In this document: piece by piece, positions 33,144 through 59,117 of the stretch
How the letters are laid out: every line of letters starts with the position of its first letter
How positions within the stretch are numbered: position 1 is the stretch's first letter
Source: a virus
Virus record (IMG/VR): IMGVR_UViG_3300010412_000019
Location: 1-64,000 of that record
Reading direction: 5' to 3' (one strand)
DNA: 64,000 bases
Program-made: the position numbers and the translations under genes
The notes under the pieces: generated by a model
Databases searched by the model: none
The model's input: the letters and a program-made list of their open reading frames with translations, nothing else
What the model was told of the DNA's origin: nothing

Positions 33144-34556
33144 TTAAAGCAACGCTTTCGCCGCCTCTGAGCGAACATTAACAAAGGATGTGTAACGATC
33201 CTCAAAGGGGCGGTTCATGTAGACCAATTCCATCATATTCGACTCTTCATAGTCAACCGAATCAGTCAGGTTAATAGTGCGAAACTTCTTGGTTACACGA
33301 TTCTGAACAAGCGTTAAGCGTCCACGCTTCGATGCCTTGCCCGGTGCTTCTTTCCACACATCATGCCAAGTGCCACCAATCTCAACAGCGGAGCACTTCA
33401 TAGCAAATTTGTATGTGTCTCGGTCTACTTTCTGTAGAGTACCAGCACCCATGCCAAAGGCAATGTTGCTTGCGGACAGTTTACGAGCCTTCATGTTCTC
33501 AAGAATCTGGCGCATTGAATCGACCGTGATTCCGTCACCCTGAATAACTCGCACATGATCTGGAAGGACTTTGTAACCCTTGCTGTTTTCTGTATAACCG
33601 AATTTCTCCATCAGAATTTCGATGACTTCAATCGGCACAACAAGCGGGTCACCTGAGTCTGGGCGTACAACAACCGTACCCCCGCTTTTCTCAACCGCTT
33701 CTTTCAGGTCTTCTCCCCAATAAATTTCGGCAGCCTTATATATGTCATAAGAGTCCGACACACAAGCAAGTATCTTGCCCGGCCCACCAAACTGGGTGAT
33801 CATGTTGGCAAAAGCATCACGTTCACGATCTTTACCCCATGAAGTGATGGTTGAGTGTTCCGAAGCTGGGATTGAGAATCCCGGCATGTCACCACCATAA
33901 TACTTCATTGCAGCAAGCGCACCAGCAACAGTGTCAGTACCAGAAAAGTTCACCAAGTGAGCCATGCCTCCGATCTGTGCTGATTCATGCGAAGAGACAC
34001 CACGGGCACCAAAATCATGCAACTTGAATGCCAGTTCAGCAAAATCATAGTCAGCCGTTTCATCCATGTACTTCTTCAAGATTTCTTTGGCTCGCAACCC
34101 ATTCGAAGCGATTGAGGTTGGGTACCAAATTGCCCTGAGAAAAGCGGTTTCGATGTACGAAGTCAACCAGAAGCAACGTGGGTCAGTGACTTCAACGGAA
34201 GCCAGAATGTGGCTCAATGGTACGGCTGTACCTTCTCGCACCGCACGAATCTTCAATGGCAGGTAACCGTCATACTTGTTGACGATGTAGCGCCAGCCGT
34301 CTTCATTGAATTCGAAGCCATGTGCTTCAACCAGCGGCTTGGCCTGATCAATGTCTTCATGTGTAATCGGGGTAGACAGATATTCTTTGATGAATGCCTG
34401 CAAGCCGAAGAAGACTACTCTTGGATTCTCCCAATCCAGATTTGTACCACGGGCTTCGACGTAAGAAAACTGGTTCGTTGTGCCCGGTGGGTACTGTTTG
34501 TAGTGAGAAAACTTGTAAGAATCGGTATTAAGAATAAGGTTGTTAATTGCGTTCAT
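33144..34556 (-). CDS. nadV: Nicotinamide phosphoribosyltransferase (Nampt/NadV)
   Basis: 470 residues from ATG 34556; AGGAG is eight bases upstream, and an ATG six bases earlier is too close. It makes NMN from nicotinamide and PRPP. Family features along the protein: 'DSYKFSHYKQYPPGT', 'HDFGARGVSSHESAQIGG', 'NFSGTDTVAGALAAMKYYGG', 'SIPASEHSTITSWG', 'VVRPDSGDPLVVP', 'VIQGDGITVDSM', 'FGMGAGTLQKVDRDTYKF'. With the NadM-Nudix gene next to it, it forms a complete two-step route from nicotinamide to NAD+. Such phage modules (NARP2) are known to restore NAD+ depleted by bacterial defences. Confidence 0.96.
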   Translation of the reverse strand: MNAINNLILNTDSYKFSHYKQYPPGTTNQFSYVEARGTNLDWENPRVVFFGLQAFIKEYLSTPITHEDIDQAKPLVEAHGFEFNEDGWRYIVNKYDGYLPLKIRAVREGTAVPLSHILASVEVTDPRCFWLTSYIETAFLRAIWYPTSIASNGLRAKEILKKYMDETADYDFAELAFKLHDFGARGVSSHESAQIGGMAHLVNFSGTDTVAGALAAMKYYGGDMPGFSIPASEHSTITSWGKDRERDAFANMITQFGGPGKILACVSDSYDIYKAAEIYWGEDLKEAVEKSGGTVVVRPDSGDPLVVPIEVIEILMEKFGYTENSKGYKVLPDHVRVIQGDGITVDSMRQILENMKARKLSASNIAFGMGAGTLQKVDRDTYKFAMKCSAVEIGGTWHDVWKEAPGKASKRGRLTLVQNRVTKKFRTINLTDSVDYEESNMMELVYMNRPFEDRYTSFVNVRSEAAKALL

Positions 34557-34558
34557 GA

Positions 34559-34574
34559 CCATAACTCCTATGTG
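34559..34574. repeat. 16-bp direct repeat in NAD gene leader, copy 1
   Basis: CCATAACTCCTATGTG is identical at 34559-34574 and 35819-35834, each covering the ribosome binding site of a NAD+ synthesis gene. The shared leader suggests coordinated translation control or recent duplication of the leader. Confidence 0.8.
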
Positions 34575-34589
34575 TCATTGTAGCGTGAA

Positions 34590-35816
34590 TTAAAGTCTGG
34601 AAGTCATGTATTCGATCATGTCCAGATGATCCTCAAAGATTTCGTCACGCATTTCCAAAATCTTATCAAGCGGGAACCACCATGCAACGACGGCATCATC
34701 ACCGCCCTTGACTCTTGGCCTGCTCTGTGTCGGGTCAAGCACAAATGAATAAACCATTGAGACTGTCGTACCACGGCTTGATCGGCCGGGGTAATCAAAC
34801 ATCTTCTCTTCTTTCACTGAACCGCGAAGTACCTTTTCTGGTACGGCGATCTTCGTTTCCTCTTTGAGTTCACGAATGCATGAATCAAAGAAACGCTCAT
34901 CCTTGCCTTTGAAACCACCCGGCAACGCCCACAGACCCTTACCGGGTGCTTCACCTCGGCGGATCATGAGTATTTCGTCACCGTGAATGACAACGGCATC
35001 GGTTGTCAAAAACTGTACAGGGAACGGACCAACCTGAGTCTTTTCCTTGTAGTCTTTGATGAATTCCCATTCCTCACGCAAGTCTTCATAGTGGTTCTGA
35101 TCCCACTCAAGAAGCGTGTTGTAAGTTTTGGGATGTAGGTTGCTCTTGGCAAATGACAGCTTGCCAGAAAACCACAGATCACGAATGTCCGTGGCTGAAA
35201 TGGGGTGATCGTTATTTGAGTCACCCACCCATGCGCCAATGTCAACCAAATCCCAGCTTGCGAAATGGTTCAGGTAATAGCTTGATTCATCTTTTTCGTG
35301 ACCCAGTACACAAACGCGGCACGAATTCGACTCTTCAATGAGGTCTCTGTAGTTTTTGATTTTCTGTGAGACATGGGTAAATGCTCCGTGTAGGTGAAGG
35401 TAGTTGTCCATCACATGATCTGTGACTTCACCAAACTCTTTTTCAAGTTCAGCTTTGACACCTTCAATTGCGTCTTTGAGAAGCGACCTCTTATAGTCAA
35501 GAATGTCATCAACACAAGACGCAACCTCACGCTTCACACGCCTGAACCACTCCTGCTCCATGTAGAACGTGTCTTCTACACTGACGAAGGTGTGATTGCC
35601 GTAATCCGATCCCAGAACGTCATACAGAACATCATCAATCATTTTGATGCGTTCATCAGCCGAGAATGGATTTTTCGATGTGGAGGGTTTGTTTGCGGAG
35701 CCGATGACACAGACGAATGAGTCTGCTATCTCAACGGCTTTCTTGAAAACGGGGATATGCCCGTTATGGATGGGCTGAAATCGCCCGATAATCACTGCGA
35801 GGTCGTATCTCTTCAT
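34590..35816 (-). CDS. nadM: Bifunctional NMN adenylyltransferase / Nudix hydrolase (NadM-Nudix)
   Basis: 408 residues from ATG 35816, AGGAG eight bases upstream. The N-terminal domain has the nucleotidyltransferase motif 'GRFQPIHNGH' (residues 11-20) and 'NPFSADERIKMI', and a late 'SATDIRDLWFSGKLS' (ISxxxIR-type). The C-terminal domain (from about residue 265) has a Nudix box: 'GGFKGKDERFFDSCIRELKE' then 'ETKI'. The first domain joins NMN and ATP to NAD+; the second may clear ADP-ribose. The same fusion is known from cyanobacteria, Francisella and phages. Confidence 0.95.
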   Translation of the reverse strand: MKRYDLAVIIGRFQPIHNGHIPVFKKAVEIADSFVCVIGSANKPSTSKNPFSADERIKMIDDVLYDVLGSDYGNHTFVSVEDTFYMEQEWFRRVKREVASCVDDILDYKRSLLKDAIEGVKAELEKEFGEVTDHVMDNYLHLHGAFTHVSQKIKNYRDLIEESNSCRVCVLGHEKDESSYYLNHFASWDLVDIGAWVGDSNNDHPISATDIRDLWFSGKLSFAKSNLHPKTYNTLLEWDQNHYEDLREEWEFIKDYKEKTQVGPFPVQFLTTDAVVIHGDEILMIRRGEAPGKGLWALPGGFKGKDERFFDSCIRELKEETKIAVPEKVLRGSVKEEKMFDYPGRSSRGTTVSMVYSFVLDPTQSRPRVKGGDDAVVAWWFPLDKILEMRDEIFEDHLDMIEYMTSRL

Positions 35817-35818
35817 CG

Positions 35819-35834
35819 CCATAACTCCTATGTG
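35819..35834. repeat. 16-bp direct repeat in NAD gene leader, copy 2
   Basis: Second copy of CCATAACTCCTATGTG, upstream of the NadM-Nudix gene. Confidence 0.8.
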
Positions 35835-35892
35835 CATGAATAGAGTTTTCTATTTAAGTAAATTGTAGGACACTTTTAACCCAGTGTCAAGG

Positions 35893-48207: not shown

Positions 48208-48390
48208 AATAATTCAATCGGGGGTGTTTGGTTGATTCTAGTTTGCATAAATGTTCACCTCAGGCTACTTATTTATGTAACAATTCGTCGGTCCACTTTC
48301 GCCTTTCGGTACCCCCGAAAACCGTTGACCTGTCTTTCTGCATTGGGCGGGGTCTAATACCCCTAATTAATCACCATTCAGACCTATTCT
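48208..48390. other. Leader region with late-promoter-like octamer
   Basis: No gene seen. Contains CATAAATA on the minus strand (48270-48277), 63 bases upstream of methyltransferase 1, and several short hairpin-forming runs (for example GGGGT/ACCCC). Confidence 0.45.
48270..48277 (-). promoter_or_regulatory. Late-promoter-like CATAAATA
   Basis: One mismatch to the T4 late consensus, 63 bases upstream of the methyltransferase start. Confidence 0.5.
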
Positions 48391-48460
48391 CTGCCGAGAG
48401 GAATCGAACCTCTTTCTCCGCATTCTAAGTGCGGTGTGTTAGCCAGTACACTACAGGCAA
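48391..48460 (-). tRNA. Degenerate or unusual tRNA, anticodon UAG
   Basis: Good D-arm, anticodon arm (CCGCA-CTTAGAA-TGCGG) and T-arm (AGAGG-TTCGATT-CCTCT), but the acceptor pairs only with a bulged T (TTGCC-T-G with CGGCA) and no CCA is encoded. Short variable loop, so not a normal Leu tRNA despite the UAG anticodon. May be a pseudogene. Confidence 0.5.
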
Positions 48461-48722
48461 CTAAGCTTGAATGTAGACCAATGGTCTTCGAAAAACTCAG
48501 TTTGACTCTCCGGGTCAATACGGTCATCGCATATCTCCCACCTCACTAGGTGGACGCATTCCTTATGCTATAACCCATCAACAAGTCACATATAAATCAT
48601 ATCTATTAAATATTAAGCATCTATAAAATTAAATAATAACTATCATCTAACCATATTCTAAATTGAACATTTTAGTTTCCTTAGTCATTACTATCATTAT
48701 CTCTACATTATAAGAGATAATC
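48461..48722. other. AT-rich spacer with hairpins between tRNAs
   Basis: No reading frame of note. Hairpins: TTGAC/GTCAA near 48510, CCACCT/AGGTGG at about 48538-48553, and TTATCTCT/AGAGATAA at 48697-48720, the last directly after tRNA-Gly. Possible processing or termination elements, or a stable RNA. Confidence 0.45.
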
Positions 48723-48795
48723 TGGAGCGGGGGACAGGACTTGCACCTGTGCTTGCTGGTGGGCACCAGCCGTGCTGCTACTACACTACCCCTGC
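48723..48795 (-). tRNA. tRNA-Gly with contracted anticodon loop
   Basis: 73 bases with CCA; GCAGGGG/TCCCCGC-type acceptor, T73. The anticodon stem GCTGG/CCAGC leaves a six-base loop TGCCCA, one base short; GCC or CCC would both be Gly. Confidence 0.65.
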
Positions 48796-51236: not shown

Positions 51237-51878
51237 TCATTTTATTTTACGGCCTTTTCTCCAACCATCTGGGATAGGGTCGTTTTTACTAATCTTTTTT
51301 GATTCATGATTGTTTGTTATCCACATAGTACCAAACGAACCATTATTTGCACCTAATCTTTTTGTGGCACCTTTTGCTATTTTTTGTTTAGATTCTTCTG
51401 TATGGTGCATACCCTTGAATGTACCTTCTGGGTATTTTTCTTGCAGTTTCTTATTCCCAAGTTTTGCATTTTCCCTTATTAGAAAACGAAATTCGGGGTC
51501 ATTATCATATTTCTTACGCCAAAGTTTTTGACGATCTTTAGCAGACATTAAAGAATTCAAACGTTTTTCTGTTAAAAACTTTTCTGGGTTATTATTGATA
51601 TAATCAAACCCACCAAAACCGCCTTCTTTCAAATTGTAACCATTTGGGTCATTAAGGTTGACCAATTTAGCTTCCATGTAAAACATATCAGACGGGTTAT
51701 TGAAAACCTCAAGAATCTCTTTCTCAAAATTTTCAACACCATATTTTTTAATGGCTCGCTTAATGAGTAAACCGCTACCCATATAACCATCATCAAGATC
51801 ATAGGTCTTATGACAACCAATATAGATTTTGCCATTGATCTTATTTACTATTTTATAAACAGTGTATTTTACATCCAT
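51237..51878 (-). CDS. GIY-YIG homing endonuclease
   Basis: 213 residues. Catalytic domain at the N terminus: 'YTVYKIVNKINGKIYIGCHK' (GIY-YIG as V-Y.. and Y-I-G), 'AIKKYGVENFEKEILEVFNN' and 'YMEAKLVNLNDPNGYNLKEG' (catalytic Glu and Asn). The C-terminal half has basic DNA-binding repeats ('HTEESKQKIAKGATKRLG', NUMOD3-like). It is more AT-rich than its neighbours and sits between tRNA-Ser and tRNA-Pro, as expected for a free-standing homing gene that invaded the tRNA array. Confidence 0.88.
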   Translation of the reverse strand: MDVKYTVYKIVNKINGKIYIGCHKTYDLDDGYMGSGLLIKRAIKKYGVENFEKEILEVFNNPSDMFYMEAKLVNLNDPNGYNLKEGGFGGFDYINNNPEKFLTEKRLNSLMSAKDRQKLWRKKYDNDPEFRFLIRENAKLGNKKLQEKYPEGTFKGMHHTEESKQKIAKGATKRLGANNGSFGTMWITNNHESKKISKNDPIPDGWRKGRKIK

Positions 51879-52043: not shown

Positions 52044-52077
52044 AAAAAAATGAACAAGGCAACGATGAACGATGCCT
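52044..52077 (-). terminator. Rho-independent terminator at end of the large ncRNA
   Basis: AGGCATCG/CG-TTGCCT hairpin with a T-T mismatch and a TTCAT loop, followed after six bases by seven T on the minus strand. Confidence 0.68.
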
Positions 52078-52505
52078 CAACTCTTTGTACCCTTGGTACA
52101 TGAGATTTAGTTTAATTTAATGCACGTTTGTCTAGTCTAAGTAGACAAAAATGCACTAAAGTAAACTGAAAAGGCTGAGATTACACCCTCAACAACCCCG
52201 CTTTCGTTCCCGTACCGATCAGTTGCTACACTTCACGTTAAGAACTTATCCACCCCTCAGAGAGAGGTACGAAGTCATGGTTACCGTTTTTAAAGTCAGG
52301 CAGTAGACTTGTCACAGCAGAGATTTCAGCATTACAATTCCTGTCAACCTTGCGGGCTGTAAAGGTGCGCTAACACCACCACTCACTTTCACACTAACCA
52401 GCGTCCACCTTGCGAGTTTCTTCTGGCCCTGATTCCCTTGCGGGTCAGGGGTTAAACCATTTCTCTCTTACTGCCGAGGCGGTCTTTGCATTTTTAGTCT
52501 TTGAG

Positions 52506-52573
52506 GCTAAATCGGGAGTTGAACCCGAACTCTATCATCCAAATTGACATGCGCTACCATTACGCAATTTAGC
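52506..52573 (-). tRNA. tRNA-like domain embedded in the large ncRNA, anticodon UUG
   Basis: Acceptor GCTAAAT/ATTTAGC (7 bp), D-arm with TAATGGTA loop, anticodon arm TGTCA-ATTTGGA-TGATA, T-arm TCGGG-TTCAACT-CCCGA. The 3' side continues CTCA, so CCA is not encoded. Could be a released tRNA-Gln or a purely structural module. Confidence 0.65.
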
Positions 52574-53344
52574 AAAACCTACCTCGATGAGCCGCCTCTG
52601 TCGCTTCATGCCCTTTTGAGGCACAAAATACAACCCACCGAATGTCCTTTCACCCGCTAAGGCTACTTTGAACCGTATCTCAAGACCACGGCATCCCTAC
52701 CGCAACCTATCGTACTGCGCCACAGCTTTTACCCGCTAAGGCTCTAACCGTAACACTACCCTTTGACTCTTGGTAATCGGTAAGTTTGCGTGTGTCTAGC
52801 TGGTTGCTATCCCAGCAGGTCTTCGGTCACCGTCGGCCCCCTCAGACTCTTCAACACCTCACCTTCTTACCGTAACTCACCCGGAGGTAAGTCTACTTAA
52901 CGAAGTCTCGGCTTGCTTGCTTGACCATTGCTGGCGCGGGTGCGTAGGCTTCACCGCTTTCCCCACCTTTCGATGGGATTATCTTATGGAGTACAAGCAC
53001 CCCATTTCTTAAAACAAACATGAAAATCTACAATCAGACGAAGGTAAACCCTTCAATCAGGCGAAGACTTTAATGTTTGTTCTAAGACCATCGCCGGGGG
53101 CACCCACTCTGGGGTCGCTTGAGCGTCCCGCGCACGGTGCGTTGCACATTTGCGCTGGGTGCCCCCAACAACGATTTAGAAATCCGTATTGTTAAAACAG
53201 AACCGTTAGTGTCTCGTATCCGAACTGGGTAGACATTTCGCCCGCCCGACTTTCTAACGCTTTACTCTGTTGCCTCTTCTCTCAATCAGAAGTCCATCTT
53301 AATGCATTTCGCAATAGTCTGTCAACCCCTGATCCAAACTTTTT

Positions 53345-58439: not shown

Positions 58440-58586
58440 TTACCCTTGGAAGTCGTTTTTGTCTTCCTTCGATGTAAGACCCTTGAATTTCGAAACTACC
58501 AAGTCAGATAGTTTCTTCGCCCATGCTGGCTGAGGGGTTGCCCACCCAACCATTAGTGCGACAAAAATCATTAGTACAGTCCACAT
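58440..58586 (-). CDS. Small membrane or exported protein
   Basis: 48 residues from ATG 58586 with AAGGA eight bases upstream. The N terminus ('MWTVLMIFVALMVGWATP' then 'QPAWA') looks like a signal sequence with A-W-A cleavage, followed by a charged tail ('KFKGLTSKEDKNDFQG'). Confidence 0.55.
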   Translation of the reverse strand: MWTVLMIFVALMVGWATPQPAWAKKLSDLVVSKFKGLTSKEDKNDFQG

Positions 58587-58717
58587 TTTATTATCCTTCT
58601 ATTTTTCGTAATATTCAGTCATAAAATTCAGTAGCCCATTTGGGTAATAAGGCTGGGCTAGACCTCAGATGGGGTTAGGCTGCGAGAGGCAGCACCTCAC
58701 CATCAAAAAATGCATCG

Positions 58718-58918
58718 TTAGCAGCATTTAATTTTAGTTTCGTCAGAGTTACGGTCTGTTGCTACACCGCATTGTCCATCTATTTTCTGACCCAAGTCGA
58801 TTCCAGAGTCACCCCCATCAGAAACACACTTACCGCAACCTGTACCCATCAACAAAATTAGTGCTGGGTCTTTTTCAATGTCGCTTTCAGTAATCTCGTT
58901 ACAAATACAAAGGTACAT
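58718..58918 (-). CDS. Bfd-like [2Fe-2S] protein
   Basis: 66 residues. 'MYLCICNEITESDIEKD' and 'GTGCGKCVSDGGDSG' give the four-Cys pattern CxC...CxxC of BFD-type [2Fe-2S] domains (bacterioferritin-associated ferredoxin). The last part with extra Cys ('KIKCC') is not typical. It could be an electron carrier for iron enzymes such as the oxygenase or the radical SAM proteins. Confidence 0.65.
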   Translation of the reverse strand: MYLCICNEITESDIEKDPALILLMGTGCGKCVSDGGDSGIDLGQKIDGQCGVATDRNSDETKIKCC

Positions 58919-58925
58919 GTGTTTT

Positions 58926-59117
58926 TGGTGGAGGTGGGGAGATTCGAACTCCCGTCCTCAAGCCGTATCGTCAATATCATACAATGATAAATTCAAAAGA
59001 GCGTGTTGGTGGGGATTCTAGGTTGCCTCTTACCGCGCCTCGCCGTCCTAGCACTGGGGCTGACCAACATCACTCTATTTCAATTATGGTAATACACTCA
59101 GAGATTCGTTGCAACCT
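58926..59117 (-). ncRNA. tmRNA-like 3' domain (T-arm and CCA end)
   Basis: The minus strand ends in GGACGGGAGTTCGAATCTCC and CCACCTCCACCA-type sequence: a T-arm preceded by GGAC as in tmRNA, then an acceptor strand and CCA. No good acceptor partner is seen nearby; the best is GAGGT at about 59112. A large hairpin (CTAGG/CCTAG within TGTTGGT/ACCAACA) fills the middle. No tag reading frame was found. It may be a reduced or partial tmRNA, or a remnant. Confidence 0.45.

Follow-up and report, generated by a model that had tools for sequence, protein, structure and literature searches.

We found that the minus strand of the window, by which we mean the whole 64,000-nucleotide stretch of viral DNA that was analyzed, carries a GOLLD RNA of about 845 nt. 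We consider it likely that this RNA is assembled into a cage, and that the linker of its subgroup holds a tRNA-shaped cassette acting as a tethered, non-charged tRNA mimic, possibly a bait. The features on which the argument draws are the following.

52172 to 52641, minus strand: conserved 3' region of GOLLD, including the linker (RF02032 model positions 1-416, 159.5 bits)
52612 to 53016, minus strand: 5' domain of GOLLD, the putative cap region (nhmmer profile, 114 bits; short blastn matches)
52506 to 52573, minus strand: linker-borne tRNA-like domain with anticodon TTG (Rfam tRNA model, ARAGORN, arm parsing, comparison with the window's tRNA array)
52538 to 52544, minus strand: anticodon loop ATTTGGA, with the anticodon TTG at 52542-52540 (ARAGORN, arm parsing)
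52592 to 52598, minus strand: linker-closing 7-bp helix, 5' strand (covariation in 48 sequences)
52476 to 52482, minus strand: 3' strand of the same 7-bp helix (covariation in 48 sequences)
52173 to 52187, minus strand: terminal hairpin of GOLLD, GGTGTAATCTCAGCC, with a short run of T residues after it (motif conserved in the family, pattern scan; terminator-like site at 52193-52174)
53017 to 53340, minus strand: structured 5' extension with an 11-bp perfect helix (fold z -4.6; beyond the 5'-domain profile match)
53296 to 53325, minus strand: promoter-like site TTGACA-18-TAAGAT just past tRNA-Arg (10 of 12 matches; the count of such sites is near that in shuffles)

The first-pass annotation had described a giant ornate RNA of the GOLLD type lying in a phage tRNA array, and this identification was borne out. 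When the stretch was searched with Rfam covariance models, 52172-52641 on the minus strand matched GOLLD (RF02032) with an E value of 7.7e-43 and a score above the cut-off of 150 bits, and the match was recovered again when the whole virus record was searched. The same RF02032 search found GOLLD in none of the control genomes (0/14), and the ROOL covariance model gave no match in the window at the Rfam cut-off. The 5' domain was matched at 53016-52612 (E 1.7e-36) by an nhmmer profile for which 82 relatives supplied their 5' domains, and the neighborhood of 52910-53010 gave short blastn matches to many relatives. Taking the 3' match together with a 5' domain that reaches about 53016, we estimate that the RNA spans approximately 53016-52172 on the minus strand, or about 845 nt. 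The setting is that of a GOLLD RNA: the virus record has 69,520 bases, the window contains 26 other tRNA genes, and a variable linker is present between the 5' and 3' domains, with the cassette occupying the model's unpaired variable stretch. As had been noticed, no gene fits here; the longest frames in the stretch are about 45 amino acids on either strand, and none is a convincing reading frame. A giant RNA class unrelated to GOLLD, which had been raised as a possibility, has next to no probability given the full-model RF02032 match above the cut-off and a 5' domain common to other GOLLDs. With these results, we ruled out a new class and conclude, on sequence grounds, that the RNA belongs to the known GOLLD family.

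The RNA had originally been drawn as a 1.3-kb transcript (53344-52044) that begins near tRNA-Arg and finishes in a terminator. Its structured character was plain: the 11-bp perfect helix (53156-53166 with 53096-53106) and the loops (two TTAGCGGGT, several CGCAAG/GAAA) are visible directly in the sequence, and both 52642-53340 (z -5.6) and 53017-53340 (z -4.6) fold better than shuffles. The family supports the shorter extent given above rather than the full 1.3 kb. The approximately 320 nt of 53017-53340, which hold the 11-bp helix, lie outside the relatives' 5'-domain profile, and the search of named phages returned nothing that matched them. At the other end, the final hairpin of GOLLD itself (52193-52174) provides the clear terminator-like site, such sites being no commoner here than in shuffles, and the far end of the RNA at 52044 is uncertain.

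Nucleotide-level relatives of this exact RNA were not found among named phages, so we sought relatives by motif scans. Neither a neighboring protein nor a 21-mer revealed close relatives of the window phage. The GOLLD RNA comes from a T4-like phage, and a search with a baseplate protein returned only T4-like phages with about 35% identity. When the hairpin that ends GOLLD was used to scan viral contigs, 58 loci emerged; 45 records from these loci matched RF02032, most of them without a linker tRNA, and in five relatives a cloverleaf occupied the same position but carried different anticodons. Further members came from a scan for the T arm plus a linker motif and from an independent scan that used a motif lying upstream of the linker, and the collected set comprised 82 linker domains, 78 of them non-redundant. 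The first cassette scan demanded the T-loop motif, and T-loop conservation is thus partly built in for those members. In the independent upstream-motif scan, the cassette was present in 50 of 51 distinct GOLLDs (45 canonical, 5 divergent). Because that motif lies outside the cassette, a GOLLD subtype defined by the tRNA-like cassette seems reasonable, and it is this part of the original suggestion of a new subtype or new class that stands. The RF02032 cut-off was passed by 41 of 45 tested subgroup relatives, and the remaining four had E values of at most 1.6e-32. Cultivated carriers above the cut-off were Sinorhizobium phage Phosso, Phaeobacter phage MD18, Mesorhizobium phage Cp1R7A-A1 and Caulobacter CcrMagneto. 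For MD18, Cp1R7A-A1 and CcrMagneto, the genes that depositors annotated as tRNA-Arg (L436), tRNA-Leu (L437) and tRNA-Lys (L438), respectively, are linker domains of unannotated GOLLDs. The GOLLD of Xanthomonas phage X1, which belongs to this group, shows no cloverleaf in its linker, and a recognizable cloverleaf is likewise missing from one member (L351) and from L014, so the cassette is dispensable in some.

We asked how well the cassette fold is kept across these relatives. The 7-bp helix reported to close over the cloverleaf was paired in 98% of cells over 48 relatives, with changes on both sides at six of its seven pairs. When the closing helix and the inner acceptor, D, anticodon and T arms were considered together in the 48 diverse sequences, 97% of cells were paired, and the arms and closing helix covaried: double-change cells numbered 365, whereas shuffles gave 98 +/- 10 and slid versions no more than 59. 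We conclude from this covariation that the cassette fold is under selection. The acceptor was shortened in the 78 non-redundant domains. From the inside outward, its pairing was.99,.94,.94,.94,.59,.38 and.53, and the chance level obtained by strand swapping for the last three pairs was.41,.37 and.44. Ordinary tRNAs from the same contigs (n = 863) gave.94,.92,.94,.93,.94,.94 and.89. Cassette acceptors are therefore mostly 4-5 bp, with the outer pairs at chance, compared with 7 bp in ordinary tRNAs, and a CCA is encoded in 3 of 78 cassettes as opposed to 93.5% of ordinary tRNAs. The same truncation was observed in the set found without tRNA features. The anticodons are diverse (GTT 18, CTT 12, TCT 9, TTT 6, TAG 5, and others). 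Eleven cassettes have Ser or Leu anticodons with variable loops of 4-5 nt and no long variable arm, and the anticodon loop has 6 or 8 bases in six cassettes.

The window's own domain is a milder case. Its cloverleaf (52506-52573) scored 47.9 bits against RF00005 (cut-off 29), and ARAGORN called tRNA-Gln(TTG) at 52503-52574, in agreement with the cloverleaf first noted there; the D, anticodon and T arms are all present. The acceptor has 6 bp (52568-52573/52506-52511) followed by a U.C mismatch, one pair short of 7 bp, and no CCA is encoded. In the window's array, 15 of 17 parsed tRNAs encode CCA, which can alternatively be added by an enzyme. An ordinary tRNA-Gln gene, excised from the GOLLD transcript and used in translation, would account for the tRNA calls by both ARAGORN and Rfam, for the six of seven acceptor pairs kept in the window, and for the tRNA-Arg, tRNA-Leu and tRNA-Lys labels that depositors gave to such domains. 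We regard this as improbable, because over the 78 relatives the acceptor is truncated and the CCA missing, the Ser/Leu domains are without a long arm and six loops have odd lengths. Moreover, an intact tRNA-Gln(TTG) with CCA is available to the phage at 42684-42757, and excision would split the cage RNA in two. The window copy is the mildest form and among the least changed in the range, so it is the relatives that support the stronger claim about the cassette; this copy could be a recently captured tRNA that still undergoes maturation.

We compared the cassettes with each other and with array tRNAs. Cassette-to-cassette likeness was.87, compared with.78 between cassettes and array tRNAs, and the nearest array tRNA shared the anticodon in 2 of 82 cassettes. 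We therefore rejected capture of a neighboring tRNA, as cassettes are not closest to the tRNAs of their own contig or anticodon. Where flank identity was at least.75, the cassette domain differed by.27, which exceeds the scaffold difference. For example, L428 and L433 have flanks that are 96% identical and domains that differ at 11 of 48 positions, and for L207 and L402 the flanks are 93% identical and the domains differ at 15 of 36. The simplest reading of these comparisons is that the cassette is exchanged as a unit.

Replacement between scaffolds would also be expected if array tRNA genes jump into a permissive linker and then erode, leaving a decaying remnant or passive filler. Four domains (L342, L374, L399 and L351) are visibly degenerate, and a pseudo-tRNA is reported in a mycobacterial GOLLD (PMC6582537). 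Erosion should cause all arms to decay, whereas pairing stands at 94-99% in the D, anticodon and T arms, double changes are numerous and only the outer acceptor is lost, a uniform end point that erosion leaves unexplained. The closer likeness of cassettes to one another than to array tRNAs, and the rarity of a shared anticodon, also argue against it. We give erosion perhaps one chance in four. The truncated acceptor, missing CCA, diverse anticodons, short-armed Ser/Leu forms and differing domains together point to a modular, non-translating tRNA mimic. The insert is usually a swappable cassette of reduced length, and it probably cannot function as a tRNA. The embedded domain is tRNA-like as described, and given the group-wide truncation, the lack of CCA and the exchange between relatives, "tRNA-like cassette" is a better name than "tRNA".

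We also considered how the anticodon changes. The GOLLDs of L121 and L202 are 96-99% identical, and their domains are the same save for five of the seven anticodon-loop bases. We found no complementary change elsewhere in the GOLLD of this pair, and with no compensating change we rejected a kissing partner for the variable loop within GOLLD. Among pairs picked by similarity outside the loop, the anticodon differed at 15 of 42 positions compared with 48 of 782 for the rest, as if the anticodon were the fastest-evolving part. This difference was gone in pairs picked by scaffold similarity (anticodon.23, rest of the cassette.27), so we make no claim that the anticodon is under diversifying selection. 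The anticodon of ordinary tRNAs is conserved far more strongly than any other part (2/312 compared with 585/6897). What we claim from these alignments is that the cassette anticodon is not conserved, unlike that of ordinary tRNAs.

An embedded tRNA as such is not new. That some GOLLD RNAs contain a tRNA, as the first-pass annotation mentioned, is already in print: phage tRNAs sometimes sit in the GOLLD linker (PMC12286853), and PMC6582537 describes a Mycobacterium GOLLD within a tRNA cluster that includes a pseudo-tRNA, for which no expression was detected. That report, in the part available, concerns a single case and does not describe acceptor truncation or family-wide exchange. The family-wide acceptor truncation and the exchange of the linker domain are the contribution of this analysis; we found no earlier account in the accessible literature, though an earlier mention of truncated acceptors is possible. 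GOLLD env-38 is 833 nt and forms a 14-mer cage by cryo-EM, with a disordered linker that points into the cage (PMC12286853). The window RNA resembles env-38 in its full 3' model match, its 5' domain, its length (about 845 compared with 833 nt), its variable linker between the domains and its phage tRNA island. It differs in that the env-38 linker is a disordered 42-nt segment, whereas the linker of the cassette subgroup is a closed tRNA-like cassette, and in the approximately 320 nt of extra structured sequence upstream. ROOL is similar as a large phage RNA near tRNA islands whose cage likewise has its linker inside (PMC12286853). ROOL is distinct in sequence and structure, in keeping with the absence of a ROOL match. 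YrlA, a tRNA-mimicking bacterial Y RNA whose partner is Ro/Rsr, also has a tRNA-shaped module within a larger non-coding RNA; this is an analogy only, as both the RNA and its partner are unrelated.

By analogy with the solved 14-mer, an RNA cage would be built with the 5' domain as its cap and the 3' domain as its ring, and the linker would point inward. In the subgroup, the tRNA-like cassette takes the place of a short unstructured loop. A shortened acceptor is expected to interfere with cleavage by RNase P, with 3' processing, with charging and with the binding of EF-Tu, and with poor excision and no charging the cassette would stay tethered in the cage as a mimic. Such a mimic might bait host proteins that recognize tRNAs through the elbow and the anticodon loop, above all the anticodon-cutting nucleases of host defense. 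This is the least certain step, and we advance it tentatively, at rather less than even confidence. Phage tRNAs are known to matter against anticodon nucleases (PMC10264068, PMC11555353); a nuclease partner for the cassette was not found. Counting against the preferred explanation, GOLLD was reportedly dispensable for phage production in L. brevis, as cited in PMC7567579. The fullest form of the proposal, in which a widespread subgroup holds an exchangeable truncated mimic covalently in a nanocage as bait with its anticodon loop matched to the threat, is more doubtful still.

Alternatively, the cassette could dock GOLLD on ribosomes or tRNA-handling translation factors, for instance to modulate translation late in infection. 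Ribosomes were bound by GOLLD in pull-downs, as cited in PMC12286853, and U33 (76/82 cassettes) and a purine at position 37 (78/82) are kept, like loops that bind the decoding site. We estimate docking at about one in five, given that the anticodons are not conserved, that the cassette is missing from many GOLLDs and that it would be hidden if the cage is closed.

If the caged domain is a non-translating mimic, as we favor, sequestration or decoy functions would be favored over tRNA supply, and some phage tRNA annotations would be wrong. If it also serves as bait, the annotated tRNAs of Caulobacter Ccr, Phaeobacter MD18 and Mesorhizobium Cp1R7A-A1 would be such mimics. Because the Ccr phages are Caulobacter laboratory phages and carry the cassette, the idea is directly testable.

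Several other features of the window were observed. The tRNA array (32066-54764, minus strand) is interleaved with genes for sugar and small-molecule modification, including family 92 and sialyl-type glycosyltransferases, UDP-galactopyranose mutase, a radical SAM/SPASM protein, methyltransferases, a carbamoyltransferase and a sulfotransferase-like protein. Within the array, outside GOLLD, a 73-nt "tRNA-Leu(TAG)" (48389-48461, minus strand) has five of seven acceptor pairs, no long variable arm and no CCA; short-armed Leu/Ser/Tyr calls occur in the relatives' arrays too, and some may be parsing errors. ARAGORN called a tRNA at 48723-48795 (minus strand) with an anticodon loop of unusual length, the anticodon being read as "cc". 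A homing endonuclease (51237-51878, minus strand; PHROG 314, E 1e-44) lies just downstream of GOLLD between tRNA genes, and near the array is a phage permuted tmRNA (58584-59018, minus strand; RF04321, 85.8 bits; ARAGORN tag AANDAFFDGEVLPLAA). At 33144-35837 (minus strand), a nicotinamide phosphoribosyltransferase stands beside a protein that combines a cytidylyltransferase-like domain of the NMN adenylyltransferase type with a NUDIX domain. The two genes look like an NAD+ salvage pair, and pairs of this kind have been described as countering NAD+-depleting defenses.
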